Below, one piece after another: positions 2,755 to 29,817 of a stretch of 64,000 nt of DNA. The notes below the pieces were generated by a model. It was not told the origin of the DNA, did not search any database, and worked only from the letters and a program-made list of their open reading frames with translations. The translations under genes and the position numbers were made by a program. The stretch lies in the NCBI GenBank assembly GCA_947462875.1, contig CANHQJ010000001.1, forward strand, positions 186,001-250,000. The letters are read 5' to 3'. This stretch comes from Verrucomicrobiia bacterium (lineage in GTDB: Bacteria; Verrucomicrobiota; Verrucomicrobiia; Verrucomicrobiales; Akkermansiaceae). The stretch's first letter is position 1, and each line of letters starts with the position of its first letter.

Positions 2755-2824
2755 GTGAGACGCGTGATGGTGGGATGGATTCACAAAAGTAATCCGCTCT
2801 GCGGCGGATGATCGCTTGATTCGC

Positions 2825-3145
2825 TCAGGAAACGACGGGATAGCCCGCCTGAGTCCAAGCATCCATGCCGCCGGTGATGTTGGTTGCCTTGGTAAATCCC
2901 TGAGATTGGAGAAACTGCACGGCCCGTGCGGAGCGACCGCCGGCTTTGCAGTGCATGAACAATTCCCCGTCCTTCGGCCACTCGTCCATGTGTTCGGGAA
3001 CTGTCGCCAAGGGAACCAAGATGCTGCCCGCAATGGCTGCCTGTGCATGCTCGTCCGGCTCGCGGACATCGATCAAACGAACGTTTGTTTGATTTTGTAG
3101 GAGGCTGTGAAGCTCTTCTACGGTGATGGATGGGATGGTGGACAT
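2825..3145 (-). CDS. rhodanese-like domain protein
   Basis: This is a single rhodanese domain of 106 residues. It has the LIDVREPDEHAQAAI block and the active-site loop HCKAGGRSARA with the catalytic Cys, and ends with the typical GGMDAWTQAGYPV. Single-domain rhodaneses are cytoplasmic sulfur or persulfide transfer proteins, and no export signal is present here. It lies 24 bases downstream of the RNA methyltransferase gene on the same strand and is probably co-transcribed with it. Confidence 0.9.
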   Translation of the reverse strand: MSTIPSITVEELHSLLQNQTNVRLIDVREPDEHAQAAIAGSILVPLATVPEHMDEWPKDGELFMHCKAGGRSARAVQFLQSQGFTKATNITGGMDAWTQAGYPVVS

Positions 3146-7400: not shown

Positions 7401-7637
7401 ACCCGATTGGAAAATCACGTCCACCGGATCCGGCCCATCCTCAATCACAAATGAACTCACGGATGAGTTCTCCCCGGATAGCAACACCGGCAGGGAGACG
7501 ACGACCGTTTTCGCCGCAGGAAATACAAAACCCTTACGCCCGCTGTCGGCAACGGCTCCAGGCATGTCTCTGGGTTCTTGTGCCTGTGCCCATAGACACA
7601 GGGCCATGAGAAACAGGATTGATTGTGTTAGATTCAT
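4479..7637 (-). CDS. secreted multidomain alpha-L-fucosidase-like protein (GH29-like)
   Basis: 1052 residues with a signal peptide (1-20, cut near AQAQ). A beta-strand segment of autotransporter type follows (about 30-140, with VYEGTLDLSKA). The catalytic domain (about 165-480) resembles GH29 fucosidases: YGIFSHYVWNG near its start and GLWIDEN, whose Asp310 is the expected nucleophile. A small beta domain (about 490-560) and three similar jelly-roll-like modules (about 570-690, 690-800 and 800-920) follow, each with a 'GTGVEVLG'-like strand; these probably bind carbohydrate. The C-terminus (925-1052) again resembles autotransporter-associated strand repeats (GDGTWANGSEKNW, DHGAVFTGKAG). No PEP-CTERM or LPxTG anchor is seen. 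It likely acts outside the cytoplasm on fucosylated polysaccharide; the acid/base residue was not identified. Confidence 0.75.
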   Translation of the reverse strand: MNLTQSILFLMALCLWAQAQEPRDMPGAVADSGRKGFVFPAAKTVVVSLPVLLSGENSSVSSFVIEDGPDPVDVIFQSGLRESGGMCGCSKSGAGTLRIEGDISLQGVITVYEGTLDLSKARVPGGLRINLYGNAKASLPESDKNNIRLYRNGEKQNATSSRREQWQTLKYGIFSHYVWNGYGMTALQANEDGTVAKTIDELANAFDVANYVNQLIEAKAQYVVFTAWHSGACPLFPSQAMKKWAPGRVSCPQRDLLGDLLDECRKRGLPALFYCHPYQPVAEPHNDWINDLYAELVDRYGDRLHGLWIDENFQDCTQDKVVDYPRLLRTIKERNPDLILIHNNGGTQTYGVDEGVQEVQWEFHEGRAASVYQIFSQTAKSPEDMLITTVIQAAANTMGGGIQWSIDAIGAGGGKMGGLDPKARPILDGFVRLLAPIAESVTGTRTSTSYLPPYRGAVVRYADLTWGVATSSADGRKEYLHVLKAPQGRSLRLPPAADGKVFARARLLEGGKAITLEQSHRGITLTLPDGVEWKKPDTVIVMDAITPGGVGLVNNTSRAMRYEDSSWRYERMLPENEYRGDRHRATADGDAFHFTFTGTDVEWIGSRGPSRGKIEILLDGKPHTTIDHSGEPAHFTTVFTLTGLARGPHTLTAIKRGGAEMTVDAFRVSDLINDSDPQMIFSDTTRHDARYASLDGPWEPRGASWINGHTFTLSFHGTGVEVLGGAAHGSGDLVLTLDGKEHSTVHCHGAQTTRSLTKIGGLTNSPHVIMGRYTNPHPAGFISALDGFVVTRPDYWQAEKHRGLFECGDDVHVSTIKHATGHLTFSGSGVEVIATRDSASRTAHYTLESNGFSLWMGLNQYAPATISQSHVFRLRNLVPGKHTIHFHHAANQSGVNFSHARLSIDAIRVYKGESSSASPLFWGADAKGGDGTWANGSEKNWHDGAMAIDWQDYGAEDHGAVFTGKAGKVRVPSPVRVNRIEFHSDGYALHGAALILTGENPLIHLAAETRVTCALHIQLPDGTTLPPGRYDAISHPAFIGGKGTLVIAPPQE

Positions 7638-7701: not shown

Positions 7702-8622
7702 TCAAGCCAACTGCGTGCGGAAGTAGGCGAGGGTGGTGGCGAGGCCTTCATCTAACGAAAAATTCGGTTGCCAACCGGCGGCGCGCAGTTTGTCAGAGCT
7801 CGCACGCGAGTGGCGCACGTCGCCGGGGCGTTCGGCGAGGTGGACGATGCGTGAGCGGCTGCCCGCTTCCGTGATGATTTTTTGCGCCAGATCGTTGATG
7901 GTGATCTGGCCACCATATCCGGCGTTGAAGGTGCCATGAATGTCGTTTTGCGCGGCAAAGGCCAGCGCGCCGACGATGTCCTTGACGTAGATGAAATCCC
8001 GTGTGGCACCGCCATCGCCGAAGATGGTGATGTCCTCGTTTTTCAACGCCTTTTCGATGAAGATCGGCACGGCGGCGGCATAGGCTCCTTTGGGGTCCTG
8101 GCGTGGGCCGAAAACGTTGAAGAAACGGATGGAGGCGCTTTGGATCCTGCCCTCGCGCCGGTAGAGTTCGAGGTAGTATTCGCCATCGAGCTTGGTGATG
8201 GCATACGGGCTTTTCGGCTCGGGGATCATCGTTTCGAGCTTGGGCACCGTGGGGTTGTCGCCATAGACCGCCGCAGAAGAAGCCAGCACGATTTTTTTCA
8301 CACCAGCGGCCGAGGCAGCCTCCAACACGTTGAGCAGGCCGTGCACATTGATGTCCACACACTCGCCGGGCTTGCTCATGGACTCTGGCACGCTGACCAG
8401 CGCGGCCATGTGGAAGATGTAGTCGATACCCTGCACGGCTTTCTCCACGATGGCGCGATCGGTGATGGAGCCTTCGATGAGAGTGACGGGCAAGCCATCG
8501 AGATTTTTCCGATAGCCGGTACGGAAGTTATCCAGCACGCGGATTTCCTCTGCGATCGATTGGAAATGTTGCGCGATGTGCGAGCCGATGAAGCCGGAGC
8601 CGCCCGTGATGAGAATTTTCAT
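7702..8622 (-). CDS. NAD-dependent sugar-nucleotide epimerase/dehydratase (extended SDR)
   Basis: 306 residues. The Rossmann motif is ITGGSGFIGSH near the N-terminus and the catalytic YxxxK is in SPYAITKLDGE; SSAAVYGD carries the catalytic Ser region. The profile is that of UDP-glucose or UDP-N-acetylglucosamine 4-epimerases (GalE/WbpP-like). Its ATG overlaps the stop of the upstream kinase (ATGA), so the two are translationally linked. With the kinase and nucleotidyltransferase it makes a short pathway from a sugar 1-phosphate to an epimerised nucleotide sugar. The frame is open upstream, but only the ATG at 8622 gives the N-terminal glycine-rich motif its normal position. Confidence 0.88.
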   Translation of the reverse strand: MKILITGGSGFIGSHIAQHFQSIAEEIRVLDNFRTGYRKNLDGLPVTLIEGSITDRAIVEKAVQGIDYIFHMAALVSVPESMSKPGECVDINVHGLLNVLEAASAAGVKKIVLASSAAVYGDNPTVPKLETMIPEPKSPYAITKLDGEYYLELYRREGRIQSASIRFFNVFGPRQDPKGAYAAAVPIFIEKALKNEDITIFGDGGATRDFIYVKDIVGALAFAAQNDIHGTFNAGYGGQITINDLAQKIITEAGSRSRIVHLAERPGDVRHSRASSDKLRAAGWQPNFSLDEGLATTLAYFRTQLA

Positions 8623-9734
8623 GAATGGGATGGGGATGCGAGTTTGTGCGCGACCAGATCTTCGAGCTCGGGCATGCGGCGCTCCAGTGCCTGCACGAAG
8701 GCGAACTGATTGCGGCAGCGATCGATGTTCTGGCTCGGGCGCTTGATTTTGAAATACACGTCGCCTTGCAAGTAATCGGTGAGGAAACGGATGCCGCACT
8801 CGAGCGTGAGCAGTTTTCCGGCATAGGCGAGGTGTTTTTTTTCCGCCTCGTTGAGAAATGTCGCGGTCTGCGTGTAGCCGCCGAGCAAGGCCTCGAACAT
8901 GTCCATTTTCAAATCCATGGCGGCGAGATCGGTGGCGTCCTCGGCGAGCTTCGGCACGGCGGTGCGCACCATGTCGCCGAAGTCATACAAGGCCGAGCCG
9001 GGCATGGTGGTATCGAGATCGATGACGCAGACTCCCTCGGCCGTGACGTCATCGAGCAACACATTGTTCAGTTTGGTGTCGTTGTGGGTCACTCGTTCGG
9101 GGATTTCTCCCGAGGCGATGAGATCGACGATGCGCGAGCAATCGGACTCGTGCGAGCGCACGAAATCGATTTCCGCCGCCACTTCCGCCGCGCGCTGGTG
9201 GCTGTCCTTTTCCAAAGCCACCAAAAAGGCTTCGTAGCGATTCCTCGTGTGATGAAAGTGCGGGATGGTCTCGTGCAGCCGGCCACCGGGCAGCCCTGCG
9301 GCGAGCTTCTGAAATTCCCCGAAGGCGCGAGCCGCCTGATAGGCTTGCTCGGTCGTCTCTAGCACATCGTAGCCACGGGCCCGCTCGATGAAGGGATAGG
9401 TGCGCCAGACATTGCCATCGGTATCGATAGCATACGGCTTGCCATCGGTGGCGGGTATGCAGGTCAGTGTGCGGCGATAGGCTTCCGGGTGTCCCTGTTC
9501 CAACAGAAGCTGCAAGCTGTGCCGCGTGACGCGATCGACATTCTCCATCAGATGGATCGGATTCTTGAAAACGTTGTGATTGATGCGCTGGTGGATGTAG
9601 CGGATGCGCTGCCCTGCGGCGTCATACCAGGCGCAGTAGGTGTCATTGATGTGACCGGATCCGTAGGGATGGGCGTGCACGAAGTCGGCACGCATGTCGA
9701 ACAAGCGCGAGATGGATTTCAAATCGTGATTCAT
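8619..9734 (-). CDS. APH-fold sugar 1-kinase, N-acetylhexosamine 1-kinase (NahK)-like
   Basis: 371 residues of the aminoglycoside phosphotransferase fold. The N-terminus has GSGHINDTY and QRINHNVFKNP, the latter typical of the NahK branch (once labelled mucin desulfatase). The catalytic loop is VTHNDTKLNNVLL and the metal-binding motif is VIDLDTTMPG. NahK phosphorylates GlcNAc/GalNAc at C1 using ATP. In Bifidobacterium it works with a phosphorylase, a uridylyltransferase and an epimerase; here a nucleotidyltransferase (6 bases upstream) and an epimerase (4-base overlap) flank it. Substrate preference is inferred, not visible. Confidence 0.8.
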   Translation of the reverse strand: MNHDLKSISRLFDMRADFVHAHPYGSGHINDTYCAWYDAAGQRIRYIHQRINHNVFKNPIHLMENVDRVTRHSLQLLLEQGHPEAYRRTLTCIPATDGKPYAIDTDGNVWRTYPFIERARGYDVLETTEQAYQAARAFGEFQKLAAGLPGGRLHETIPHFHHTRNRYEAFLVALEKDSHQRAAEVAAEIDFVRSHESDCSRIVDLIASGEIPERVTHNDTKLNNVLLDDVTAEGVCVIDLDTTMPGSALYDFGDMVRTAVPKLAEDATDLAAMDLKMDMFEALLGGYTQTATFLNEAEKKHLAYAGKLLTLECGIRFLTDYLQGDVYFKIKRPSQNIDRCRNQFAFVQALERRMPELEDLVAHKLASPSHS

Positions 9735-9740
9735 GGGCGG

Positions 9741-10652
9741 TTAGAGCGAGGAAGGGTATTCACCGGCGGCGATCAGCGCCTGGATGTTGGCGACGACATG
9801 CGGCTTGTCATCAGGGTAGGTGACGCCGAACCAGGAGCTGCTCGTGGGCAAGACGGCACAGTCTGCCCGGTGGCTGCGGATCAGGGCATCGACGACCGTG
9901 GGAATGTAGCATTCGGATTTTTCCTCATGGCCGCGTTCTTTCAGGAAGCTCGTGAATTCCTCCTCGATTCTCGCGAGGAATGATGCCTGAAAGGCCCAGA
10001 AATTCATCGATACCAGGGAATCAGCGGGCACTTCGCGGCGCTCGCCATTGAGGTAATCGCCATAAATGCGACCGTTCCCCTCGCGCTGGATTTTCACCAC
10101 TTCCTCGACCGAGGCAAGGAAACCGCGGGCATCGCTGCGACAGATGCCGCGATTGACATCGCCGTGATCGGACAAGGTTTTCAGCAGTTCATAGCCGACC
10201 ATCGCATAGTGCTCCATGCCATCAGGCGCGGAACTTTGCTCCAGAAACGTCACCGCGCGCTGATAGGAATCACGACCATAAAAGTCATCCGCGTTGATCA
10301 CGGCGAAGGGCCCATCGACCAGGTGTCGCGCCGCACGAATGGCATGCGTGGTGCCCCAGGGCTTGGTCCGGCCCTCCGGCACGGTGAAGCCTGCGGGCAG
10401 GTCATCGAGAGATTGATAGGCATATTCCACCTCGATTTTCCCAGCGAAACGGGCACCGACGCTGGCTTGGAAGGACTCCGCGAAATCCTTGCGAATGATG
10501 AAAATCACCCGCTTGAAGCCCGCGCGGATGGCATCGAATACCGAGTAGTCGAGCACGGTTTCGCCATTCGGCCCCATCGGGTCCATTTGTTTCAGGCCCC
10601 CGTAACGGGAGCCCATGCCGGCTGCTAAAATCAGGAGGGTGGGTGAGGACAT
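9741..10652 (-). CDS. sugar-phosphate nucleotidyltransferase
   Basis: 303 residues beginning with the nucleotide-binding loop LILAAGMGSRYGGLKQ of NTP_transferase enzymes. The metal-binding strand is AVINADDFYG. This places it with UTP/NTP:sugar-1-phosphate nucleotidylyltransferases. The variant motif AGMGSRYGG and an overall length near 300 fit a group commonly next to NahK-like kinases. It is the first gene of the three-gene minus-strand unit and has its own promoter-like sequence at 10671-10700. Whether it uses UTP or dTTP, and GlcNAc-1-P, Gal-1-P or another sugar, cannot be told. Confidence 0.85.
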   Translation of the reverse strand: MSSPTLLILAAGMGSRYGGLKQMDPMGPNGETVLDYSVFDAIRAGFKRVIFIIRKDFAESFQASVGARFAGKIEVEYAYQSLDDLPAGFTVPEGRTKPWGTTHAIRAARHLVDGPFAVINADDFYGRDSYQRAVTFLEQSSAPDGMEHYAMVGYELLKTLSDHGDVNRGICRSDARGFLASVEEVVKIQREGNGRIYGDYLNGERREVPADSLVSMNFWAFQASFLARIEEEFTSFLKERGHEEKSECYIPTVVDALIRSHRADCAVLPTSSSWFGVTYPDDKPHVVANIQALIAAGEYPSSL

Positions 10653-10670
10653 ACGCGTTGTGTGCGCGCA

Positions 10671-10700
10671 GTTCTAGTCACAATGCGGCCAACTTGGCAA
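10671..10700 (-). promoter_or_regulatory. candidate promoter of the nucleotidyltransferase-kinase-epimerase unit
   Basis: On the minus strand TTGCCA (10700-10695) is followed after 18 bases by TAGAAC (10676-10671). The start codon is 18 bases further, so this unit would have a short leader of about a dozen bases. Confidence 0.45.
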
Positions 10701-10709
10701 GAGGAGATC

Positions 10710-10740
10710 AAAAAAATCTGTCATGAAAAACATGTCAGAT
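10710..10740 (-). terminator. leftward terminator-like hairpin upstream of the promoter
   Basis: Read leftwards, TCTGACATG (10739-10731), a five-base T loop and CATGACAGA (10725-10717) pair in 8 of 9 positions. Seven T (10716-10710) follow directly. This is the form of an intrinsic terminator for leftward transcripts, yet no leftward gene lies to its right. It may insulate the promoter at 10671-10700 from stray transcription. Confidence 0.45.
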
Positions 10741-11017
10741 AATTTCGCTTGATAAGCAGGTGTCTCCGAGCCGATCCCAGAGCGAGAGCATTGTAAGGAT
10801 GAGCCGGCGACTCCCGTAACTGTAACGTATTCGATTTTCTGGAGAAACGTGGAAAGAATGGATTGTGCCGATAGCGATCTATGGGTAAAACATCGCAGGA
10901 AATGCAATACGCCCCACTTCTTATGATTTCACTCACTGATGCTTCCATTCCCCATGCGCGATGCATGGCAAAAACATCAAACGAATGGATGGATGAGAAT
11001 TCCAGTAACACCCGTCT

Positions 11018-12067
11018 ATGAAGCAGGAGAATTCCATTTCGATTCGGCAAACGCTGCGTCGCTTGTTCGGGGCCATTGGCAATTTCCTGCTGTCGACCGT
11101 GGGCGCGCGTGCGCGCTGGATGTTGATTGGATTGCTTTTGATGATGATCGCGATCAATGTGATGAACGTGGCCAACAGCTATGTGGGGCGCTATTTCATG
11201 TCGGCGATCGAGGCTCGCGATCATGAGGGCTTTGTGCAATACGCCTGGCTGTATCTTGCGGTTTTTGCGGCCAGCACTTTGTTCGCGGTGTTGTTCCGTT
11301 TTGCCGAGGAGCATCTCGGATTGGTGTGGCGTGAATGGCTGACTCGGCGCATCACCGAGATTTATGTCACGCGCCAGTTGTATTTGCCCCGCTGCGGTCA
11401 GGAGGTGCTGAGCAATCCCGACCAGCGCATGACGGAGGACGTGCGTCAATTGACGACCACCACGCTCTCGTTCTTTTTGATGATGATCAATGCCACCTTG
11501 ACCGTCATTTCCTTCTCAGGGGTCTTGTGGCAGATCAGTCCGAAGTTGTTCGGTGTGTGTGTCTTGTACGCGGTGGCAGGTTCATTGGTGACGATCTGGC
11601 TGGGACGCCCGCTGATCCGGCTGAACTATGAACGTTCGGATTATGAGGCGAATTTGCGTCTGGAGCTGATCCGCATCCGCGAGCATGCGGAGCAGGAGGT
11701 GGAACCGATGAGCAATGAGCTGCTGCGCGACCGCATCGCCGCTCGCATCGATGAATTGATGGTGAACTTGCGGCGCATCATCGAGGTCAACCGCAACCTT
11801 GGTTTTTTCAGTACGGGCTACAATTATCTGATCCAGCTCATCCCTGTTTTGATTGTCGCACCACTGTTCATCGATGGTGATGTGGAATTCGGGGTCATCG
11901 GTCAATCGGCGATGGCGTTTGCGATGCTGCTTGGTGCTTTTTCCCTGATTGTCAACCAGTTCCAGGCAATTTCCTCTTACGCATCAGTGGTCGCGCGTCT
12001 ATCGGAATTCACCGATCACGCCGAACGCTGCGGGGAGATCGACAATCAAACATCGGACAAACCCTGA
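11018..12067 (+). CDS. SbmA/YddA-type transporter membrane domain without ATPase domain
   Basis: 349 residues with hydrophobic segments near 30-60, 70-95, 145-175, 180-195 and 260-320. Sequences such as MNVANSYVGRYFMSAIE, GLVWREWLTRRI and NPDQRMTEDV match the membrane domain of YddA/ABCD-type ABC half-transporters (ABC_membrane_2) and the proton-driven SbmA/BacA family. The protein ends after the membrane domain, with no Walker A or signature motif before the stop, and the GH94 gene starts 11 bases later. It could be an SbmA-like secondary transporter or a half-transporter using an ATPase encoded elsewhere. TAACAC lies 6 bases before the ATG. Confidence 0.75.
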   Translation: MKQENSISIRQTLRRLFGAIGNFLLSTVGARARWMLIGLLLMMIAINVMNVANSYVGRYFMSAIEARDHEGFVQYAWLYLAVFAASTLFAVLFRFAEEHLGLVWREWLTRRITEIYVTRQLYLPRCGQEVLSNPDQRMTEDVRQLTTTTLSFFLMMINATLTVISFSGVLWQISPKLFGVCVLYAVAGSLVTIWLGRPLIRLNYERSDYEANLRLELIRIREHAEQEVEPMSNELLRDRIAARIDELMVNLRRIIEVNRNLGFFSTGYNYLIQLIPVLIVAPLFIDGDVEFGVIGQSAMAFAMLLGAFSLIVNQFQAISSYASVVARLSEFTDHAERCGEIDNQTSDKP

Positions 12068-12078
12068 TCGATACGCTC

Positions 12079-15000
12079 ATGAATGCGCAAGCCCCCTCTG
12101 AACAAATCGTTCCGCACACCGTGAGCAGTCCCTCAGGTGTCCGCATGGTGTTGAATCACAATGGTTCGATCCGGCGCATGGAGTGCGAGGACATAGTGAT
12201 CAATTTGTTTCCGACCAGTGCCGTGGAAACAGGTCCATGCAACTTGATCCTGCGTGTGCTCAACGATTGCGGCCCTGAGTTGGTTCCTTTGCTGGGTCCG
12301 AGCGGTCCGCTGCGATGGACTTTTTCCGAGCGGGGCGCTGAAGGGCGGGGGATGTGGAAGTCTCTGGCAATCAAGGTGCGACTGCTGCTCGCGGAGTCCG
12401 GCACGGCATGGTTCTGGCATGTGGGAATCGATAACCACAGTGCCGAAACCTATCGCTGTGATCTCATTCATACGCAAGACGCGGGCCTCGCGCACTATGG
12501 AGCCATCAGGCTCAATGAGTATTATGTGAGCCAGTATATCGATCACTTCGCTTTGGAGCACGAAGTTCATGGAGCGTGCCTTGCATCGCGGCAAAATCAA
12601 TCAATGGGAGGCCGCTACCCGTCGTTGTTGGTGGGGTCGCTCGGCAGGGCGGTGTCCTATGCGACCGATGCCCTGTCGGTCTATGGAAGGGAGCACCGCT
12701 GTGGTCAACACGCCACCGGACTGCATGAAGGACTACCGGGAAAAAAATGCCAACATGAGCATTCCCTGTTGGCATTGCAGGAGGAGGAGTTTTTGTTGGA
12801 GCCGGGGCAGGGCGCGCAGCGCGGATTTTTCGCGCAGCTGGCCATCGATCATCCCGCCGCTTTGTCAACTGCCGACCTCCAGCGGTTGGAGGCCGCGCTT
12901 GCCTTGCCGGAATCCACCTGCCCGCCTTGGTCGGAACTTCCACAATGCGTGGCGAATGCCGAGGGAATGTTTTCCCACACGAGCGAGTTGGAAGTGGATG
13001 AAATCAGTGATGGGTTGTTGACTGCGATTTTTGGCAAAGAACGCTTGCTCCAAGAGCGGGTGGAAGGGCGGTTGTTGTCGTTTTTCACACCGCAACAGGA
13101 ACATGTGGTGCTACGTGGCAAGGAAGCCATGGTGCTGCGCCCTCACGGTCACATCATGCGCAGCGGGGCATCCTGGGTGCCCGATGAGGCATCGATGACA
13201 AGCACCGCATGGATGGCGGGTGTGTTTCATTCCATGGTCACGCAAGGCCATGTCAGCATCAATCGTTTTCTCTCAACCTGCCACAGCTATCTCGGCATCT
13301 TTCGCAGCCATGGGCAGAGGATTTTTGTGGAGATTGACGACGTGTGGCATCTGCTCGGCGTGCCCTCGGCTTTTGCTATTTCGTCCCGGCAATGCCGCTG
13401 GATCTACGCCTTCGGCGGCGATGTGATGGAAGTGACATCGTCCGCCGACGAAGACTCCCATCAGTTGCACTTGCATGTGCGGGTGGTCTGCGGTCCTGCG
13501 AGAAAATTTTTCCTCAGCCATCATGTGGCGCTCAATGGTGATGACGGCCTGGTCGGCGGCGACGTGCAATTTGTCTGCCACGGCAACAAGGAGGTCGTGG
13601 TGCGTGCGATGGCCGACAGCGATGTGGGGCGTCGATTTCCCGACGGGAGTTTTGTGATCTCCACCGACGATGATACGCTGTGGGAAACGGTGGGCGATGA
13701 TGGCATGTTATGGTCGGACGGGCAGACGCGCGGTGAGCCGTTTTTGTGCATGCGGACGCGAGCGACGGAGCGGCTGGCCTTGACGTTGACGGGGCGTCTT
13801 TTGCCTTCGATCGATGCAGCGGATCAAATGACGGATCAAAACGGTGCACAAGAGTGGCGACTCTCCGTGGATCCCGCGCAGTCGTACGCCGCGGAAATGG
13901 ATGCCGTGACACAATTCATCCCGTGGCTCGTCAACAACGCGCTGGTGCATTATCTCTCGCCGCGCGGTCTGGAGCAGTACTCGGGCGGCGGTTGGGGAAC
14001 GCGCGATGTCTGCCAGGGGCCGATGGAGTTGCTTTTGTCGCTGGGGCACTTCGCCGTCGCGCGCGATCTGTTGTGCCGGGTCTTTCGTCAACAGAATGCC
14101 GATGGCGATTGGCCGCAGTGGTTCATGTTTTTCGACCGGGAGCGCAATATCCGCCCCGGTGATTCCCACGGCGATATCGTCTATTGGCCGGTGCTGGCGT
14201 TGGCGCAGTATCTTTGCGCTTCGCGGGATGCCACGATTCTGGAGGAAAAACTGCCGTATTTTCATCCCGAGGGAGATGCCGCGGCGGTGAGCGCCAGCAT
14301 CGCAGAGCATGTGGAAACAGCGCTGGCACTGATTCGCAATCGTGTGATCAGCGGAACGGTGTTGGCCGCCTACGGACATGGCGATTGGAATGATTCGCTC
14401 CAGCCCGCGAAAGCGGAAATGCGGGATCACTTGTGCAGCGCATGGACGGTGACCTTGAACTATCAGACCTACCGCACCTTGGCCGATGCCTTCGATCGGT
14501 TGGGGCGAAGCGCGGAAGCCGAGGTCTTGAACGCACAGGCCGCGCAAATTTTGTCGCAGTTTCAGGACATGTTGCTGATCGATGGTGTCGTCACGGGCTT
14601 GCTGTATTTCCACCCCGAGGGGCAACGCGAGGCGCTGTTGCATCCGGGCGACCGCAATACGGGACTATCCTACAGCCTGTTGCCGATGATTCACGGCATC
14701 ATCAATGACATGTTCACCCCAGCGCAGGCGGCGCATCATCTGCGATTGATTCGCCAGCATTTGTTAGGTCCGGATGGCGCGCGTTTGTTTGATCGTCCGA
14801 TGAAATATCAGGGAGGCATTTCGCATAATTTCCAGCGTGCGGAGACCGCGAGTTTCTTCGGGCGTGAAATCGGAGTGATGTACGCCCATGCGCACATCCG
14901 CTATGCCGAGGCCTTGGCCCGCTATGGCGATGCGGACGGTTTGTGGCTGGCATTGCGGCAAATCAATCCCATCGGCTTGCAGTCGATCGTAAAATCGGCG

Positions 15001-15459
15001 GCGCTGCGCCAGTCGAATTGCTATTATTCCAGTTCCGATGCCGCTTTTACCGATCGCTATGACGCCTATGATCACTACGATCGTGCTCTGAGCGGAGAAG
15101 TTTCCCTCGAGGGTGGATGGCGCGTGTATTCCAGTGGTTCGGGAATCGCGGTGCGCCTCATCTTGCAGTGTTTCCTTGGCATTCGTCTTGAAGCGGATGG
15201 CGTGATCATCGATCCCGTCATCGCTCCCGCTCTGTCGGGCATGAAGGCAACGGTCGATGTGGCGGGCCACCGTTGGCATGTGGAATACCGTGTCGGCGTG
15301 CGTGGCTGTGGTCCGGTATCGGTCTACGCACACGGTGAAACACTGCAGGGAGAGCGATTGCCCAACCCCTATCGCAAGGGCGGTTTGCGCATTCCTTTGT
15401 CCGAGTGGCAACGGGTCTCCCGTGGTCAGGATGATCCGCTGCTCATTGTGTTAGACTGA
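12079..15459 (+). CDS. GH94 glycoside phosphorylase, possibly 1,2-beta-oligoglucan phosphorylase-like
   Basis: 1126 residues without a signal peptide, so cytoplasmic. The N-terminal half is a large beta-sandwich; the C-terminal half is an (alpha/alpha)6 barrel with GGGWGTRDVCQGP and GHGDWNDSLQPA. In GH94 enzymes the Asp of the DWND motif (Asp769 here) is the general acid and inorganic phosphate is the nucleophile, giving an alpha-sugar 1-phosphate. The length of about 1100 and the TRDVCQGP motif recall 1,2-beta-oligoglucan phosphorylases rather than the 800-residue cellobiose or chitobiose enzymes, but this is tentative. It starts 11 bases after the transporter gene. Its last Leu codon TTA (15451-15453) is also the stop codon of the convergent glycosidase. 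Confidence 0.8.
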   Translation: MNAQAPSEQIVPHTVSSPSGVRMVLNHNGSIRRMECEDIVINLFPTSAVETGPCNLILRVLNDCGPELVPLLGPSGPLRWTFSERGAEGRGMWKSLAIKVRLLLAESGTAWFWHVGIDNHSAETYRCDLIHTQDAGLAHYGAIRLNEYYVSQYIDHFALEHEVHGACLASRQNQSMGGRYPSLLVGSLGRAVSYATDALSVYGREHRCGQHATGLHEGLPGKKCQHEHSLLALQEEEFLLEPGQGAQRGFFAQLAIDHPAALSTADLQRLEAALALPESTCPPWSELPQCVANAEGMFSHTSELEVDEISDGLLTAIFGKERLLQERVEGRLLSFFTPQQEHVVLRGKEAMVLRPHGHIMRSGASWVPDEASMTSTAWMAGVFHSMVTQGHVSINRFLSTCHSYLGIFRSHGQRIFVEIDDVWHLLGVPSAFAISSRQCRWIYAFGGDVMEVTSSADEDSHQLHLHVRVVCGPARKFFLSHHVALNGDDGLVGGDVQFVCHGNKEVVVRAMADSDVGRRFPDGSFVISTDDDTLWETVGDDGMLWSDGQTRGEPFLCMRTRATERLALTLTGRLLPSIDAADQMTDQNGAQEWRLSVDPAQSYAAEMDAVTQFIPWLVNNALVHYLSPRGLEQYSGGGWGTRDVCQGPMELLLSLGHFAVARDLLCRVFRQQNADGDWPQWFMFFDRERNIRPGDSHGDIVYWPVLALAQYLCASRDATILEEKLPYFHPEGDAAAVSASIAEHVETALALIRNRVISGTVLAAYGHGDWNDSLQPAKAEMRDHLCSAWTVTLNYQTYRTLADAFDRLGRSAEAEVLNAQAAQILSQFQDMLLIDGVVTGLLYFHPEGQREALLHPGDRNTGLSYSLLPMIHGIINDMFTPAQAAHHLRLIRQHLLGPDGARLFDRPMKYQGGISHNFQRAETASFFGREIGVMYAHAHIRYAEALARYGDADGLWLALRQINPIGLQSIVKSAALRQSNCYYSSSDAAFTDRYDAYDHYDRALSGEVSLEGGWRVYSSGSGIAVRLILQCFLGIRLEADGVIIDPVIAPALSGMKATVDVAGHRWHVEYRVGVRGCGPVSVYAHGETLQGERLPNPYRKGGLRIPLSEWQRVSRGQDDPLLIVLD

Positions 15460-18400
15460 TGTTTCAGCATTGCTTCGCAATCGCAGATGGGCGATGAGCG
15501 GAAGTTGATGGATCTCGATGGTGTCCGCGCGGCTCGGGCTGAGCGCGCCATCGCCCTGTTCGAGATCGACGGATTGGATCGACATTCCCCCGGGACAGGG
15601 CGGTCGCAGCAGCAAGCCGCCTGCCGGGATGGTGAGGCTGCCACCCACCTCGACAGAGATGACCTGGTTATCGCGGACACTCAGTTTCAACGCAAGCGTG
15701 CCGTAAGGCGTTGGCAGATGGCGCACGGCAAAGCCCGCACCGGTGGCAATCCATTTCCAGGGCAGACCGGAGGCGAGGACCAGCGAGTGCGAGGCATCGC
15801 GCTCCGAGGCGACCATCGAGGTCAGGGCTATGATATACTCCGCGGCGATCCAGGTGTGGGGCACATCACCGAGATGTCCGGGCGAACGTGGATCGCGCCA
15901 GGTGATTTCCGGCCATTGGTTCCATTCGCAGGGACGGCGGTCGGACAGGAAAAATTCCAGCAACTCCTGTGCCGTATCGCGGTTTCCCAAACGTACGAAC
16001 GCGCCGATGATGCGGATCTCGTAAGCGGTATAGTTGTTCCATGGCATCTCGCCGCGGTGCTTGCGGTGGAAGCCATCGAGATAGCTCGTCAGCATGTTTG
16101 CGAGGGGGGCGGCGGGCAGCACATCCGCGAAGTCGAGCATGGCGATGGCATTGGAGGTCGCTGTGGGATCGAAGTCCGCCCATTCGACAGAGCCGGGGAC
16201 GTAGTTGAGATTTTTTTCCGCGATGACCCGATCCAGTGACTGCAGAACATCGGTCTCGAACGCGGCCGCGTCCTCGCTCCACCGCGTGGCCTCCGTCTCA
16301 TGTCCCAGCCACGCGCAGATGTCCGCGCAGGCTTGCAGACCCCGTATGCCCCAGAAATCATCCCAGTAGGAGTGCACCGGATGCGCGAGATATCCCTCGT
16401 GGCTCGCGGATTCCGGCAGCAGACCGTAGCGCGAGAGCTGCTCATCGCTGCGATAATCATCCGTCATGCGCTGCTGGCGGATCCGCAGAAGATACTCGGC
16501 GGCTTTGCGTGCGTGAGGAAGATGAGCTTCCAAAAATCCGGCATCGTGTTGGTGGCGATAGACCTCGCGGATTCCCCACAGGAACTGGCCGTGGCTGTCG
16601 TGCTCGACCAACCAATCGACGCCATCGCGATCCACGACACAGGGGATGAAGCCATCCTCGCGCTGAAACGAGGCGTACCACTCGATGAACACACGCAGCG
16701 GATCGGACAATCCGACCTTCGCCAGCGCCGCGCCCATGATGACGCAGTCACGCACCCACGAACGTGTGTAGCGGCGAGGTCCGGGCTGGATCGCAGGACC
16801 ATCACGATTGATCAGAATGTGGCCGGCGCAGGTGCGCCAGCAGTCAAAGGCATTCGCGGCGCAGGAGGGAAAATCCCACTTTACCGTACCAAGCGTTTTT
16901 TTCCACTGATCGATCATGGCCTCGCGCGTGGTGAAATGGGGCGTCTGTTCCTGCGGAAAATAGGGCATCGAGACAGTGACCTCGTATTCGGTGACATCGG
17001 CTGGAATTTCCCAGATAAGGACGGCCGAGGCCCGCTCGCTGGGATCGGTCACGCGGCTGGAGGGAGGGATTTTTCCCTCGGCCAGATACGCCAACACGCC
17101 TCCTTCCTCAAAGCGCGCCGCACCGCTGTGAGTGGGCAGGGGATGGCTGCGGATGATTCTGCCATCGATCTGCGATCCGGAGTCCTCCAATCTGATATCG
17201 CGGATGGGGCTGACACCGCCAAGATTGCGAAATGCCTGCCAGGGCGGGTTGACTTGAAACGGGCGGATGGCGATGGCCAGACTCATGACCGCTTGCGGGA
17301 CCGGCACTTGCAACCGATAGCGCACATGCAAGGTGAGCGCCTCGACGGCACCATCGACCCATGGCAGAATTTCTAACGAAACATGTTCATGATTCCAAGT
17401 GACAGTGGGCAAGGGGATGCCGTCGGCGGCGAGACCCGCCTGTGTTTGCATGTCCGCCCAGGTAAGCAAACCCGCCGAGGTGAGAATAAACGGCTCGAAG
17501 GAAAAGGCCCCTTCATCGACTTCCACCATGCCTTCTTCATTGATGAGCGCCCGGCGTCTGCCCTCGGGGCTGCCAACGGGAGTCCAGTACGATTGCTCGC
17601 GATGCCAGTAGCGCGGATGCCATCCACGCGGGTAATCGCGCGCGACGGAGTGGATGAATTCGTTGGGCGTTTGCGAAAAAGCATCCGGCTGCCAGTGAAT
17701 GTGGCGCATGGCGGCACAGGCGGCGTTTGCGAAAACCAATCGCACGTAACGCGCTTCCGCCGCCGGGGTGGGTAGATGGCTTAGCGCTCCGCGCGCGTGT
17801 TTCGCTTCATAGAGACTCTGCCATGTTTGTCCATCCGCGGAAATTTCCAGACGATAGGCCCTGGCGGGAAGGTCGGCGGGCCAGTGAATGATCAGACCGC
17901 CGAATCGTTGTGCGCGTCCGAAGTCGATACTCCACCACGGTTGTGAGTCGCCGGGCAGTGCGCGCCATTCATGGGCATTATCGGAAAACACCGCGCTGGC
18001 GGGATGAGCCGGACTTTCGCTGGAGGCGGAGATCGCGGCGGGAGAACGCAGGGTTTCATCGAGCAAATACGCAGCGCAGATGTCGAGGTGACCTTTTCCG
18101 CCGGGACCGGCCGCGATGACGAATTCGATCGCCTCGATCTCGGAAGGCGCGCCGCCGCCATTCGGTCCCCACGCGAAGAGCATGTCACGCTCGTGCATCA
18201 CGATGGCTTGCCACTCGCCGGGCAGCGCGAAGTCTTGTCGCAAGTAGCGCCAGACATTGAATCCTCCGGGCGACGCGACCTTGCACTCGAAATGATTGGG
18301 CGGTCCCTCGCCGCGCAACTGATAGCCCCACGCGAAAGTGGTGGGCAATGTCAGCGGGAAAACCCTGCGCATGACCACGAAGCCGCCGCCGCCGTGGAAG

Positions 18401-18534
18401 TCATAGCGCAAACGCAGACCTGCCTCCCCCCCTGGTCCCGTGATTGTTTCCACGCTGCCCTCGGCCTGTCCTGAGGCGCATACTTGCCACGCGCTGGCGT
18501 CATCAAAGAGCGATTCGAACGGCATTTCGGTCAT
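15451..18534 (-). CDS. discoidin-domain (alpha/alpha)6 glycosidase of unassigned family
   Basis: 1027 residues. An N-terminal jelly-roll (about 1-160) precedes a discoidin/F5-8C-like domain (about 165-285, with WWSIDFG, LEISADGQTW and ARYVRLVFANA). A linker beta domain and an (alpha/alpha)6-barrel region (about 560-900) follow, with RSWVRDCVIMG, REDGFIPCVVD and SYWDDFWGIRGL. The Asp in WVRD and the acids in YWDDFW are candidate catalytic residues. The fold recalls clan GH-G/L-type glycosidases (GH15, GH63, trehalase-like), but I cannot place it in a family. No signal peptide is seen, so it is probably cytoplasmic, like the convergent GH94 protein whose 3' end it overlaps by 9 bases. Confidence 0.7.
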   Translation of the reverse strand: MTEMPFESLFDDASAWQVCASGQAEGSVETITGPGGEAGLRLRYDFHGGGGFVVMRRVFPLTLPTTFAWGYQLRGEGPPNHFECKVASPGGFNVWRYLRQDFALPGEWQAIVMHERDMLFAWGPNGGGAPSEIEAIEFVIAAGPGGKGHLDICAAYLLDETLRSPAAISASSESPAHPASAVFSDNAHEWRALPGDSQPWWSIDFGRAQRFGGLIIHWPADLPARAYRLEISADGQTWQSLYEAKHARGALSHLPTPAAEARYVRLVFANAACAAMRHIHWQPDAFSQTPNEFIHSVARDYPRGWHPRYWHREQSYWTPVGSPEGRRRALINEEGMVEVDEGAFSFEPFILTSAGLLTWADMQTQAGLAADGIPLPTVTWNHEHVSLEILPWVDGAVEALTLHVRYRLQVPVPQAVMSLAIAIRPFQVNPPWQAFRNLGGVSPIRDIRLEDSGSQIDGRIIRSHPLPTHSGAARFEEGGVLAYLAEGKIPPSSRVTDPSERASAVLIWEIPADVTEYEVTVSMPYFPQEQTPHFTTREAMIDQWKKTLGTVKWDFPSCAANAFDCWRTCAGHILINRDGPAIQPGPRRYTRSWVRDCVIMGAALAKVGLSDPLRVFIEWYASFQREDGFIPCVVDRDGVDWLVEHDSHGQFLWGIREVYRHQHDAGFLEAHLPHARKAAEYLLRIRQQRMTDDYRSDEQLSRYGLLPESASHEGYLAHPVHSYWDDFWGIRGLQACADICAWLGHETEATRWSEDAAAFETDVLQSLDRVIAEKNLNYVPGSVEWADFDPTATSNAIAMLDFADVLPAAPLANMLTSYLDGFHRKHRGEMPWNNYTAYEIRIIGAFVRLGNRDTAQELLEFFLSDRRPCEWNQWPEITWRDPRSPGHLGDVPHTWIAAEYIIALTSMVASERDASHSLVLASGLPWKWIATGAGFAVRHLPTPYGTLALKLSVRDNQVISVEVGGSLTIPAGGLLLRPPCPGGMSIQSVDLEQGDGALSPSRADTIEIHQLPLIAHLRLRSNAETSV

Positions 18535-18539
18535 GGTGT

Positions 18540-18568
18540 AGACTAGGAACGGCGCACGTTTCTGTCAA
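18540..18568 (-). promoter_or_regulatory. promoter of the discoidin glycosidase, leaderless type
   Basis: On the minus strand a perfect -35 TTGACA (18568-18563) and TAGTCT (18545-18540) are 17 bases apart. The ATG at 18534 follows after only 5 bases, so transcription should begin at or next to the start codon. Confidence 0.6.
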
Positions 18569-18632
18569 TTCGCATCTGGATCGTATTGCCTCGCAAATCA
18601 TCCGGAGTTGTCGAGTCCATCGCAAAATAGCA

Positions 18633-18662
18633 TTGCCAATCAGGTGGTGGCCTACTTATGCT
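18633..18662 (+). promoter_or_regulatory. promoter of the phosphohexomutase, leaderless type
   Basis: TTGCCA (18633-18638) and TATGCT (18657-18662) are 18 bases apart, and the ATG at 18671 follows after 8 bases. Together with the sequence at 18540-18568 it forms a divergent promoter pair in a 136-base gap. Confidence 0.6.
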
Positions 18663-18670
18663 GGGGGCAG

Positions 18671-20608
18671 ATGAATTCATTGTCCGCTGCACTGGAACAG
18701 GCCGTCGAATCGGGAAAATTGCTACCATCCGCTCAACAAAACATTCACGCGTTGTTGCAAGGAGTCGCGGATGATTTCGCGGAGCGCGTGGTGGCCGAAT
18801 TGGTCGCGGGTGATCAGTGGAACGAGCTGAATGATCGCTTTTTCAAAAAACTCGCCTTCGGCACAGGAGGCTTGCGCGGTCGCACGATCGGCCGGGTGGT
18901 GACTTCGCTGGAGCAAGGCGAGGGCGGACCGAATGACAGACCGCAGTTCCCCTGCGTCGGCACGGCGACTATGAATTTTTTCAACGTCAGCCGCGCGGTG
19001 CGTGGTCTGGTGGCGTATGCGCAGCAACACGTCGGCGGCGAGCGCAAGGCACGCCTGGTCTTCGCGCATGACACCCGCCATTTCTCGCGCGACTTCGCCG
19101 AGTTTTGCGCCAAGGTCTGCACCGACCTCGGTGCGGATGCGTATCTGTTCGAGAGCGCACGCAGCACGCCGCAGTTGTCCTTTGCCATCCGCGAACTGCG
19201 GGCGGATGCCGGCGTGGTTCTCACCGCCAGTCACAATCCCTCGCACGACAATGGCTTCAAGGCCTACTTCAACGATGGCGGCCAGATCGTGGATCCGCAT
19301 GCCACGGCGATCATCGGCTTGGTCAATGCGTTGGAGACGGAAACCTATCAAAAAGTTGCGGAACAGCAGCGGGGGAGTCTGACGATTCTCGATGCCGCGA
19401 TGGATCGCCGCTACATGGATCGCCTGCGCTCGCTGCTGATGCGGCCGGAGTTGCTCATGGGCGCTACCGCCAAAGTCATCTTCACCAATCTGCACGGCAC
19501 GGGAGGAAAAATCGTCGTGCCGATGATGCGGGAACTCGGTTTCGATGTCGCCACGGTGGCGGCGCAGGATGTGGAAGATGGTCGTTTTCCCACCGTCGAT
19601 TCTCCGAATCCCGAAAACGCCCCGGCTCTCAAAATGGCCATCGATCTCGCGGAAAAAGAAGGTGCGGAAATCGTCATCGGCACCGACCCCGACAGCGACC
19701 GCATGGGCATCGCCGCGCGTGATGCCTCGGGATCCATGGTATTGCTCACGGGCAATCAGATTGGTTCCCTGATGGCGTGGTATCGCGTGAAGGCCGCGTT
19801 TGATTTAGGCTGGATCACCGATGCCACCCGCAGCCGCGCCGTATTGATCAAGACCTTTGTCACCACCGAACTGCAACGCGCGATCGCCGATCATTTTGGC
19901 ATCCGGGTGGTGGATACGCTCACGGGTTTCAAGTACATCGCCGAAAAACTGCGCAAGTATGAAAACACCATCCCCGCGGCAAAAATCGCCGAGCTCAGTG
20001 CGGATGGCTATCGTTCGCTCAGCGAGGATCAATCGCGCCGCCTGCGTCTCGAGTTCTCTCGCTTCTTTGTCTTCGGCGGAGAGGAAAGCTACGGCTACCT
20101 GGGTTGCGATTTCGTTCGCGACAAGGATGCGAACGGCGCCGCCGTGATGTTTGCCGAGGTGGCTGCGTATGCGAAAAGCGTGGGGCTGACATTGCCTGCT
20201 CTGCTGGATCAAATTTACACCGAGTTCGGCTATTTCCTGGAAATCGGCAAATCACTGGTGATGGAAGGGGCTGATGGTGCCGCCAAAATCGCCGCATTGG
20301 CAGCCTCCTATGCCGCCCATCCACCGAGCGAATGCGACGGCTCCGCCGTGGTGCGCGTGCGCGATTTCGCATCGCAGGATTTGTTCGATGAAGAAGGGGA
20401 CGAGTTGCCCAAGGAAAAAATGCTCTTCGTCGATCTCGCCGATGGCCGCCGTTTTGCGGTGCGTCCCTCCGGTACGGAACCGAAGATCAAGTTCTACCTC
20501 TTCGGCTGCGCAGGCAGTGACGTGCTCCTGGCCACCGCCAAAGAGCAAGTCAAGTCCTCCCTTGCCTCCCTCTGGAGCTGGATCGAAAAAGATGCGGCGC
20601 AACGCTGA
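18671..20608 (+). CDS. alpha-D-phosphohexomutase (phosphoglucomutase/phosphomannomutase family)
   Basis: 645 residues with all four family motifs: the phosphoserine loop TASHNP (Ser187), the metal loop GTDPDSDRMG, the sugar-binding GGEESYG and the phosphate-binding RPSGTEPKIKFY. It interconverts hexose 1- and 6-phosphates, so it can move the sugar 1-phosphate made by the GH94 enzyme into glycolysis. The length exceeds the usual 450-550 residues and is nearer the PGM2-type 580-620 group. The frame is open 21 codons further upstream, but the ATG at 18671 is chosen because the promoter ends just before it. Confidence 0.93.
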   Translation: MNSLSAALEQAVESGKLLPSAQQNIHALLQGVADDFAERVVAELVAGDQWNELNDRFFKKLAFGTGGLRGRTIGRVVTSLEQGEGGPNDRPQFPCVGTATMNFFNVSRAVRGLVAYAQQHVGGERKARLVFAHDTRHFSRDFAEFCAKVCTDLGADAYLFESARSTPQLSFAIRELRADAGVVLTASHNPSHDNGFKAYFNDGGQIVDPHATAIIGLVNALETETYQKVAEQQRGSLTILDAAMDRRYMDRLRSLLMRPELLMGATAKVIFTNLHGTGGKIVVPMMRELGFDVATVAAQDVEDGRFPTVDSPNPENAPALKMAIDLAEKEGAEIVIGTDPDSDRMGIAARDASGSMVLLTGNQIGSLMAWYRVKAAFDLGWITDATRSRAVLIKTFVTTELQRAIADHFGIRVVDTLTGFKYIAEKLRKYENTIPAAKIAELSADGYRSLSEDQSRRLRLEFSRFFVFGGEESYGYLGCDFVRDKDANGAAVMFAEVAAYAKSVGLTLPALLDQIYTEFGYFLEIGKSLVMEGADGAAKIAALAASYAAHPPSECDGSAVVRVRDFASQDLFDEEGDELPKEKMLFVDLADGRRFAVRPSGTEPKIKFYLFGCAGSDVLLATAKEQVKSSLASLWSWIEKDAAQR

Positions 20609-21155: not shown

Positions 21156-21797
21156 ATGGCTTTCGGGGAATCTTGGCATATCAAATCGCGTTCGCATCTC
21201 TGTGCGGTGACAGGCAGACCATTTGCCGATGGGGAACCCATCATTGCGGCCATTTTTCCGGATCCCGAGTCTTCGGGGTGGCTGCGCAGGGATTATTCGC
21301 TGGAGGGTTGGGAGCAGCGCGATGAGGCGGAAGCGGAGAAATTTTCCCAGTGGAAAACCGTCTATAATGCGCCGGTTTCCCACGAGCGGTTGGAAGTGAC
21401 GAAGGAGAGCCCGATTGATTTGTTGCGCCGCATGGTCGATGAGGATGAGGAGCACACGGAAAAGGTGCGTTTCATTCTCGCGGTCATGCTGGAGCGCCAG
21501 AAGGTGCTGGTGGAAAAAGACACGCAAGCCGTGCCCTCGGGCATTTTGCGGGTGTATGAGCACCGCAAGGAGGGGGATGTCTTTCTCATCCGCGATCCGA
21601 ACGTGGCGCTCGATCAGGTGGAGGCCATGCAGCAGGAGGTGCTTGATTTGTTAGAAAATCATGGCCGCAAACCGGTTGAAGAACCCACCGCAGAGAACGC
21701 CGGTGAGCTTTTCGCGGAAGAGGAGGCCAGTGAGGAAAGCGAGCCTCAGGCGGAAGGCCCCTTGGGCTCGGACGGCGCGGAAAAATCCGGCACCTGA
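21156..21797 (+). CDS. conserved hypothetical protein with acidic C-terminal tail
   Basis: 213 residues. The N-terminal part has SHLCAVTGRPFADGEPIIA and the middle has LLRRMVDEDEEHTEKVRFILAVMLERQK, a probable helix, then RDPNVALDQVEAMQQEV. The last 45 residues are rich in Glu, Ser and Pro and look disordered. I do not recognise a domain of known function. The frame can be extended to a TTG at 21126; the ATG at 21156 is preferred. Its 3' end overlaps the convergent BatD-BatE gene by 52 bases, and the acidic tail is encoded exactly there. Confidence 0.65.
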   Translation: MAFGESWHIKSRSHLCAVTGRPFADGEPIIAAIFPDPESSGWLRRDYSLEGWEQRDEAEAEKFSQWKTVYNAPVSHERLEVTKESPIDLLRRMVDEDEEHTEKVRFILAVMLERQKVLVEKDTQAVPSGILRVYEHRKEGDVFLIRDPNVALDQVEAMQQEVLDLLENHGRKPVEEPTAENAGELFAEEEASEESEPQAEGPLGSDGAEKSGT

Positions 21798-24184: not shown

Positions 24185-24199
24185 AACAAACGAGAGAAA

Positions 24200-26173: not shown

Positions 26174-26180
26174 GGCAAAG

Positions 26181-28623: not shown

Positions 28624-28634
28624 CGGGCTTCCGG

Positions 28635-29618: not shown

Positions 29619-29639
29619 GGTCGGAGTTACGATAAGTCG

Positions 29640-29669
29640 ATAGTATGCGATAATAACGGCACCGCGCAA
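29640..29669 (-). promoter_or_regulatory. candidate promoter of the MoxR-Bat operon
   Basis: On the minus strand TTGCGC (29669-29664) and TACTAT (29645-29640) are 18 bases apart, with the ATG 21 bases downstream. This would give a leader of about 14 bases with no Shine-Dalgarno sequence. Confidence 0.5.
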
Positions 29670-29817
29670 CTTGATTGTGCAAACGATAGGTTTTTTCATG
29701 AAAAATCAATGGGTTGCGAGGATTCATGTCCCGGTAGACCAGGAGAATCGCAGGAAATTTGTTGACCTTCGCGGCATTCTGAGGCAGTTCTCTGCGCCAG
29801 ACAATGATCGACAAGGC

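Follow-up and report, generated by a model that had tools for sequence, protein, structure and literature searches.

A predicted 1,2-beta-oligoglucan phosphorylase, an ABC-related transporter and a putative GH15-like glycosidase co-occur with genes for osmoregulated periplasmic glucan synthesis

Introduction

Which glycan is handled by the genes that surround a GH94 phosphorylase in a Verrucomicrobiia bacterium of the Akkermansiaceae (assembly GCA_947462875.1, 3.95 Mb)? The genes lie in a stretch of 64,000 nucleotides (contig CANHQJ010000001.1, positions 186,001 to 250,000, forward strand), here called the window, and comprise the phosphorylase, a transporter protein, a large putative glycosidase (GHx), a phosphohexomutase, and a cassette of a nucleotidyltransferase, a NahK-like kinase and an epimerase (Table 1). 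A first-pass annotation of the window, made from its letters alone, had joined all of them in a single phosphorolytic pathway similar to the bifidobacterial lacto-N-biose/galacto-N-biose (LNB/GNB) pathway. Every gene that it named was found in its place by open reading frames and by Pfam and structure-database matches, and its idea of phosphorolytic glycan metabolism, with phosphorylase, transporter and glycosidase together, stands; the NahK cassette, in contrast, does not belong to the system.

The real unit consists of the SOGP-type phosphorylase, the transporter and GHx, hereafter the core set, and its co-occurrence with the synthesis of osmoregulated periplasmic glucans (OPGs) is strong. 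Low osmolarity leads OPGs to build up in the periplasm (PMC8820737). The enzymes that make them are currently being characterized. Some OPGs are reported to be beta-1,2-glucans in which a single alpha-1,6 bond closes the ring (PMC11842490; PMC11228985). In the open-licence literature found on OPG turnover, no route back to the cytoplasm is described, and the available excerpts of PMC10514313 and PMC8820737 mention no OPG recycling pathway. We propose, giving it about an even chance, that the core set is a three-protein system that would reclaim the cell's own OPG, a beta-1,2-glucan, by import and breakdown.

Distribution of the core set

Co-occurrence was examined in 145 genomes of the family and in 387 genomes of the phylum, both even draws from larger groups, with thresholds set once the gaps separating strong from weak matches were apparent. 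GHx gave 28 matches at E <= 1e-20 in the family, 26 of which were kept, two genomes at about 80 bits (G036, G143) being dropped. The transporter was counted as strong at an identity of at least 53%, which removed three of 29 genomes (G006, G036, G136) and second copies, all at 43% identity or less. With these thresholds, the 26 of the 145 genomes that encode GHx are precisely those that encode the transporter, and each of these 26 also encodes a predicted beta-1,2-glucan phosphorylase, either SOGP (16 genomes) or a second lineage related to cyclic glucan synthase (CGS type, 10 genomes). This association is not only a matter of linkage, because in many genomes the genes lie on different contigs or far apart.

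A wider scan for GHx retrieved 128 relatives, and the best 80 loci were kept, with up to 10 kb on each side of the GHx gene. These best 80 come from Verrucomicrobia, Deltaproteobacteria, Chromatiaceae, Methylococcaceae, Solimonas and others, and many of the contigs are short. SOGP is near GHx in 18 loci and the CGS type in another 18 at more than 300 bits (20 at E 1e-20, two matches under 300 bits, in L129 and L141, having been dropped), with no locus having both; the transporter is near in 47 loci and a GH1 protein in nine. When only the 36 loci longer than 20 kb are considered, SOGP is present in 11, the CGS type in 14, the transporter in 27, and at least one of them in 33.

The phosphorylase and its alternative

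The assignment of the phosphorylase to GH94 was correct at the level of the superfamily; its score with the generic GH94 Pfam profile falls under the cut-off, as the enzyme belongs to the SOGP type. It aligns with LpSOGP (5h3z) over residues 37-1106 (E 1e-179), the N-terminal Ndom1 included, and with the same domain order. The ligand residues of LpSOGP given in the available text of PMC5309861 are N138, Y141, Q621, R630, D631, W758, D760, R907, R916, E917, Y922, H924, Y1004, S1005 and S1006, and the window protein keeps 15 of these 15, namely N146, Y149, Q633, R642, D643, W770, D772, R920, R929, E930, Y935, H937, Y1017, S1018 and S1019. It should be noted that these residues were mapped by eye on the 5h3z alignment, the chain numbers of which are one above those of the paper, and the last three by means of a constant offset. 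All 15 are invariant in a 12-sequence alignment, while two small residues reported for subsite +2 are changed (G623 to Ser, A626 to Gly). The protein is thus predicted from its sequence to be a 1,2-beta-oligoglucan phosphorylase like LpSOGP and LiSOGP. Its genomic context is different: the Listeria SOGP cluster is reported to have a GH3 enzyme and an ATP-binding cassette (ABC) importer (PMC12369401), whereas the window SOGP sits with GHx and a non-ATPase transporter.

Besides 16 of the 26 set-bearing genomes, SOGP is encoded in two others of the family, G014 and G052. The remaining ten set-bearing genomes contain a different GH94-domain protein, the CGS type, for which cellobiose phosphorylase is only the next best match (E 6e-70). 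Unlike cyclic glucan synthase, it is a stand-alone protein of about 1080-1330 aa without GT2 and cyclisation domains. Seven of 17 genomes with a match were dropped here: six whose matches did not exceed about 302 bits, and G097, in which a match of 724 bits lies inside a 2919-aa frame that is probably a full cyclic glucan synthase. Both lineages are GH94-type, distinct from each other and, as far as their sequences can tell, directed to beta-1,2-glucan. They occur together in none of the 145 genomes; this mutual exclusion would be explained if either gave the same product, the two GH94 lineages occupying one slot.

Association with OPG synthesis

OpgG (PF04349, GH186) is reported to be needed for OPG synthesis (PMC11842490). 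It is encoded in 45 of the 145 family genomes, i.e. in 26 of 26 with GHx vs 19 of 119 without. Within genera g7 and g13 taken together the figures are 21 of 21 with GHx and 9 of 18 without (p 2e-4); genus g1, where all ten genomes have OpgG, offers no contrast. In the phylum sample, 12 genomes, of which five also belong to the family sample, have GHx at more than 600 bits, and OpgG is present in 12 of these 12 vs 77 of 387 overall. OpgG was also found in 34 of 34 further genomes from the 80 GHx loci, mostly non-Verrucomicrobia (32 from other phyla, one Verrucomicrobiia and one 'uncultured bacterium'), and only in E. coli among 14 control genomes, which were not matched to the 34 by phylum.

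In three purple sulfur bacteria (L147, L162, L166), OpgG and OpgH stand beside the transporter, GHx and the CGS-type GH94 protein. A single gene separates OpgH from the transporter, a GH1 gene in L162 and L166 and a 509-aa frame in L147, a locus which also has a GH1 match. The identity of MdoH is above the NCBIfam cut-off in L147 and L166 (the two tested), as it is for the OpgH of the window genome, which adjoins OpgG.

This proximity of OpgGH and the core set in three genomes would also fit a role in biosynthesis or tailoring, in which phosphorylase and GHx would set the length of the chain, or build a primer, on the cytoplasmic side, with the transporter exporting the product. Consistent with such a role, the GH94 domain of cyclic glucan synthases tunes chain length during synthesis (PMC11842490), and ATPase-bearing homologues of the transporter are described as having a type IV ABC fold (PMC13316013). 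However, release of the chain to the periplasmic side is reported to be the work of OpgH itself (PMC11842490), a transporter that has lost its ATPase motifs is poorly suited to uphill export, the GH1 beta-glucosidase near GHx in nine of the 80 loci suggests breakdown, and half of the g7 and g13 genomes without GHx have OpgG nevertheless. We consider this alternative rather unlikely.

The glucan to be broken down might also be foreign, as in the Listeria and Streptomyces clusters from which SOGP is known (PMC5309861, PMC12369401), and the GH1 genes of some loci would agree with that. The presence of OpgG in all the 26 set-bearing genomes speaks for an endogenous substrate instead. In addition, GH144, a glucanase family found in four of the 145 family genomes, is found in none of the 26 (other beta-1,2-glucanase families were not searched). 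What looks like a scavenging arrangement is seen in G014 and G052, where a GH144 glucanase lies beside SOGP and GHx, the transporter and OpgG are all missing. Scavenging by the core set is therefore unlikely.

The transporter

The gene of the transporter ends 11 bp upstream of that of the phosphorylase. The first-pass annotation had read it as an SbmA-like domain, and the homology of its transmembrane domain (TMD) with SbmA/BacA and YddA is real. Relatives beside GHx are mostly 560-690 aa long, a length sufficient for a nucleotide-binding domain (NBD); the presence of the latter was checked with Pfam ABC_tran in one protein (L106) and read from length and alignment in the others. Among 43 aligned transporters, six have a canonical Walker A motif, 31 have an NBD region without Walker A, in which the Walker B Glu is mostly Arg or His, and six, including the window protein, have no NBD. 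Being without an NBD, the window protein and its five relatives are not ABC transporters in the usual sense. In a tree from one FastTree run, the six NBD-less proteins form one clade (support 0.995) nested among those with a degenerate NBD, and E. coli SbmA and YddA branch together, apart from this lineage. Because comparison of the window gene with that of G033 gives dN 0.05 and dS 1.08, i.e. strong purifying selection, the short protein is not a relic.

The transporter is thus, by sequence comparison, a former ABC protein in which the ATPase is degenerate or, in the window, lost. Its membership of the SbmA/SLiPT family was considered and rejected, four of the six glutamates reported to form the ladder of SbmA (E193, E203, E269, E276, E287, E378; PMC13316013) being absent. 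It has instead three acidic residues of its own, E65, E97 and D208, which are invariant in 37 of 37 sequences and which the six Walker A-bearing proteins mostly lack. SbmA-like transporters have been proposed to arise from YddA-like ABC proteins by NBD loss (PMC13316013). In the lineage described here, a full-length ABC protein has likewise given rise to the NBD-less form. This lineage looks like another and independent conversion of an ABC into a secondary transporter, and would provide natural intermediates (first a dead NBD, then none) of the change inferred in that 2026 SbmA paper.

In some Gammaproteobacteria metagenome-assembled genomes (L167, L170, L175, L177), GHx has as its neighbour a distantly related transporter (24-25% identity) whose Walker A is intact, and an ATP-driven form may persist there.

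The GHx protein

The genes of GHx and SOGP are convergent, and their 3' ends share 9 bp. By eye, no signal peptide is seen at the N-terminus of either protein, and both may, as the first-pass annotation had it, be cytoplasmic. The first-pass annotation had predicted a glycosidase with an (alpha/alpha)6 barrel and a discoidin domain, which agrees with the CBM32/discoidin match in Pfam and with a structure model built from a 61-sequence alignment, where the barrel has 12 helices (mean pLDDT 92.5; a single-sequence fold, at 37.8, was discarded). The barrel is claimed by no Pfam or NCBIfam family. The GH15 profile PF00723 matched neither GHx at E 0.01 nor any protein of genome G000 at E 1e-10, and the NCBIfam oligosaccharide amylase model matched only residues 589-690, with 34 bits against a cut-off of 821. 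At the level of family profiles, plain membership of GH94, GH15 or GH144 was therefore rejected, no Pfam or NCBIfam family fitting the protein.

As to the fold, GH15 proteins lead the VIA matches of the model: dextran dextrinase 9ju0 (Z 30.2 over 551 residues) is followed by the bacterial glucoamylase 1lf6 (28.6), glucodextranase 1ug9 (27.5) and the Kribbella isomaltose glucohydrolase 5z3a (27.3). Dextran dextrinase is also at the top of the Foldseek list, with GH78, glucodextranase, glucoamylase and GH94 proteins close after. The barrel was compared alone with the sequences of the PDB, because the profile of the whole protein is swamped by CBM32 matches; it found the methylmannose polysaccharide hydrolase 7qsj (E 1.4e-4), 9ju0 (0.009) and 1ug9 (1.2), as well as two unrelated chains at E >1. 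Aligned with hhalign to seven GH15 proteins, the barrel reached a probability of 94.7. A viral structure library gave mostly CBM- and tail-type proteins and few weak barrel matches. As for the SGL clan (GH144/162/189/192-194), GHx has no match to PF10091, which we take to be the GH144 profile, and no member was recognized among the structure matches listed.

In GH15, the catalytic acid is located in the alpha5-alpha6 loop and the base in the alpha11-alpha12 loop (PMC12446779). The corresponding loops of the GHx model, 688-722 and 865-893, hold the invariant residues E713 and E876, respectively, and the WxRD motif is also present. On the basis of the model, GHx can be described as a putative glycosidase with a GH15-like fold, which differs from GH15 in having no Pfam GH15 match and in its own N-terminal domain and CBM32. 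Because GH15 enzymes are reported to act on alpha-glucosides, several of them on alpha-1,6 linkages (PMC12446779), and some OPGs have an alpha-1,6 closure, an alpha-1,6-cyclised OPG is suggested as a candidate substrate. A glycosidase-like family without a family model is thereby flagged, and the class of its likely substrate narrowed.

Directly beside GHx, an MGH1/GH63-like protein was observed in L082, L083, L128 and L133 (903 aa) and in L117 (586 aa); since L082/L128 and L083/L133 are the same contigs, this amounts to three genomes. It is possibly a second trimming enzyme.

A possible route for OPG return, and its weak points

We infer the course of the route (import, then breakdown), what drives it, and the activity and substrate of GHx as follows. 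The transporter would carry OPG or OPG fragments from the periplasm to the cytoplasm with a driving force that is not ATP, for which protons would be the SbmA precedent. GHx would then cut a linkage closed to phosphorylases, the candidate being the alpha-1,6 bond of an alpha-1,6-cyclised beta-1,2-glucan; such a ring offers no end to an exo-phosphorylase. SOGP would release glucose 1-phosphate from the resulting linear chain, down to sophorose, and the phosphohexomutase would pass glucose 6-phosphate to glycolysis. In its widest form, the proposal would be of a dedicated OPG recycling in several phyla, comparable with peptidoglycan recycling, with a formerly ATP-driven transporter, a ring-opening GHx, interchangeable phosphorylases and stages of NBD loss independent of SbmA. 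This extension is doubtful. The core set itself supplies a testable gene set for the return of OPG to the cytoplasm.

A number of observations weigh against reclamation of the cell's own OPG. The Fisher values for the core set (3e-29 for GHx and transporter, 1e-26 for GHx and phosphorylase) overstate the association, the genomes being related. Makers of OPG do not need the core set, since half of the g7 and g13 genomes without GHx have OpgG. In the window genome itself, OpgG is on contig C18 and the core set on C1. The support from the 34 further genomes weighs less, both because their controls were not matched by phylum and because OpgG is common in Gammaproteobacteria. Furthermore, OpgG is present in only two of ten phylum genomes that encode divergent GHx relatives at 350-422 bits (G238, G311, G325, G365, G374, G458, G464, G490, G512, G530), so that the tie is limited to the full-length GHx family. 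In these relatives the match begins only at residue 158-302, the N-terminal part being present but unmatched, and they probably have a different function.

Other points of this kind concern the proteins. The only GH186 protein of the window genome has its best match in 8x18 (374.5 bits, vs 351 for E. coli OpgG and 286 for OpgD), which we infer to be the cyclising XccOpgD of Xanthomonas from W76, D343 and R477 falling at the published positions. By eye, the window protein has Tyr for W76, a short loop A, Gly for D343 and Ser for R477, and so lacks two of the three signature residues reported for the enzyme that cyclises at a degree of polymerization of 16 (DP16). Its resemblance to clade 4, whose members may keep transglycosylation and not make the DP16 ring (PMC11228985), is suggestive only. 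The transporter keeps just E193 and E276 of the glutamate ladder, and both are present in YddA too. As regards GHx, the VIA scores of GH116 (26.8), GH65 (26.6) and then GH78, GH63 and SOGP itself (Z 25-27) are close to those of GH15, and in the Foldseek list of the model GH78 and GH94 trail GH15 narrowly. Moreover, hhalign places the GH15 acid at G729 of GHx and not at E713, which makes E713 a tentative choice. Finally, GH15 hydrolases are reported to be exo-acting (PMC12446779), while the opening of a ring needs an endo cut.

It is also conceivable that GHx is an intracellular enzyme of alpha-glucan (glycogen), its linkage to the other genes being incidental. The GH15-like fold of the model would fit, and a glycogen phosphorylase lies near GHx in L085, L086, L088 and L124, an observation which must likewise be set against OPG reclamation. 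Yet these are only four of 97 loci having a GHx call, and in the 145 genomes a strong GHx is always accompanied by both the transporter and a beta-1,2-glucan phosphorylase, which makes a glycogen enzyme very unlikely.

A GH13/CBM48 protein is also near GHx in L085-L088, and the glycogen-gene neighbours may connect OPG with the stores of glycogen.

The NahK cassette

The homologies of the nucleotidyltransferase, kinase and epimerase are real, and the three genes are tightly packed as had been supposed, with a gap of 6 bp between nucleotidyltransferase and kinase and an overlap of 4 bp between the epimerase and the kinase stop. The long open reading frame of the epimerase matches Pfam Epimerase only from residue 62, and its start is for this reason most likely the ATG at 8622 and not the GTG at 8799.

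Conservation of the neighbourhood, put forward as a check at the first pass, holds for the core set and fails for the cassette: the NahK-like kinase is near GHx in one of the 80 loci from other genomes, and that one is the closest relative of the window. Among the family loci fetched, cassette and core set stand side by side only in G033. The gene order of the cassette is kept in L092 and L095-L098, with no SOGP in their fetched stretches. NahK homologues are present in 138 of 145 sampled family genomes, and a close orthologue (at least 57% identity) was not seen in five of the 26 set-bearing genomes (G042, G045, G116, G132, the last only 72% complete, and G140). The cassette is an independent, widespread neighbour, outside the core system. 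Because BT4240, a characterized homologue of its kinase, is reported to be a GalNAc kinase (PMC11992087), a role in amino-sugar metabolism is likely.

An LNB/GNB-type pathway was rejected on these grounds of linkage and on the specificity residues of the phosphorylase. The likeness consists of a NahK homologue and an epimerase in the neighbourhood. The differences are that the cassette is unlinked from the core set in most relatives and that the phosphorylase of the window locus is SOGP and not GH112 (no search for GH112 covered the rest of the genome). Uptake of a GlcNAc- or GalNAc-containing glycan and its phosphorolysis, which would feed the cassette, could explain why the genes are close together in the window and in G033, and the homology to NahK is genuine. 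However, the residues that the window SOGP shares with LpSOGP serve there to bind beta-1,2-linked glucose units, so that a GlcNAc/GalNAc 1-kinase would have no evident role, the cassette is sited elsewhere in most of the relatives examined, and G042 carries the core set without a close kinase orthologue. This explanation is most improbable.

Other genes of the window

The phosphohexomutase, recognized as such at the first pass, is probably an accessory of the core set. It adjoins the core set in G033 and G023, lies about 5.6 kb away in G039, G107 and G064, and is close to GHx in two of the 80 wider loci. Its true start may be downstream of the listed TTG.

Table 1. Position of the genes discussed, numbered from the first nucleotide of the window.
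Gene product	Position	Strand	Basis	Relation
NAD-dependent epimerase, sugar-nucleotide-epimerase-like	7702..8622	-	Pfam Epimerase	separate cassette, neighbour
NahK-like N-acetylhexosamine 1-kinase	8619..9734	-	match 4ocu, E 3e-77	separate cassette, neighbour
Nucleotidyltransferase	9741..10652	-	match 3pnn, E 8e-89	separate cassette, neighbour
Transporter, 349 aa, TMD of ABC_membrane_2/YddA-SbmA type, without NBD	11018..12067	+	Pfam SbmA_BacA, ABC_membrane_2	core set
SOGP phosphorylase (GH94), predicted	12079..15459	+	match 5h3z; Pfam SOGP_N, SOGP_2nd, SOGP_4th	core set
GHx, 1027 aa: N-terminal beta-rich domain, CBM32, beta domain, GH15-like (alpha/alpha)6 barrel	15451..18534	-	Pfam CBM32; structure model	core set
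Phosphohexomutase (sugar 1-P/6-P type)	18608..20608	+	Pfam PGM_PMM I-IV	probable accessory

Three further features of the window are recorded here, all on the minus strand. Positions 21746-29699 contain a MoxR/Bat-type operon (MoxR AAA ATPase, DUF58, two VWA proteins and a BatD protein). A protein of 1052 aa (4479-7637) has CE2 as its N-terminal domain, an alpha-L-fucosidase-like domain and a weak match to an autotransporter repeat, and a GH99-like protein, slightly under the Pfam cut-off, is encoded at 1441-3069.

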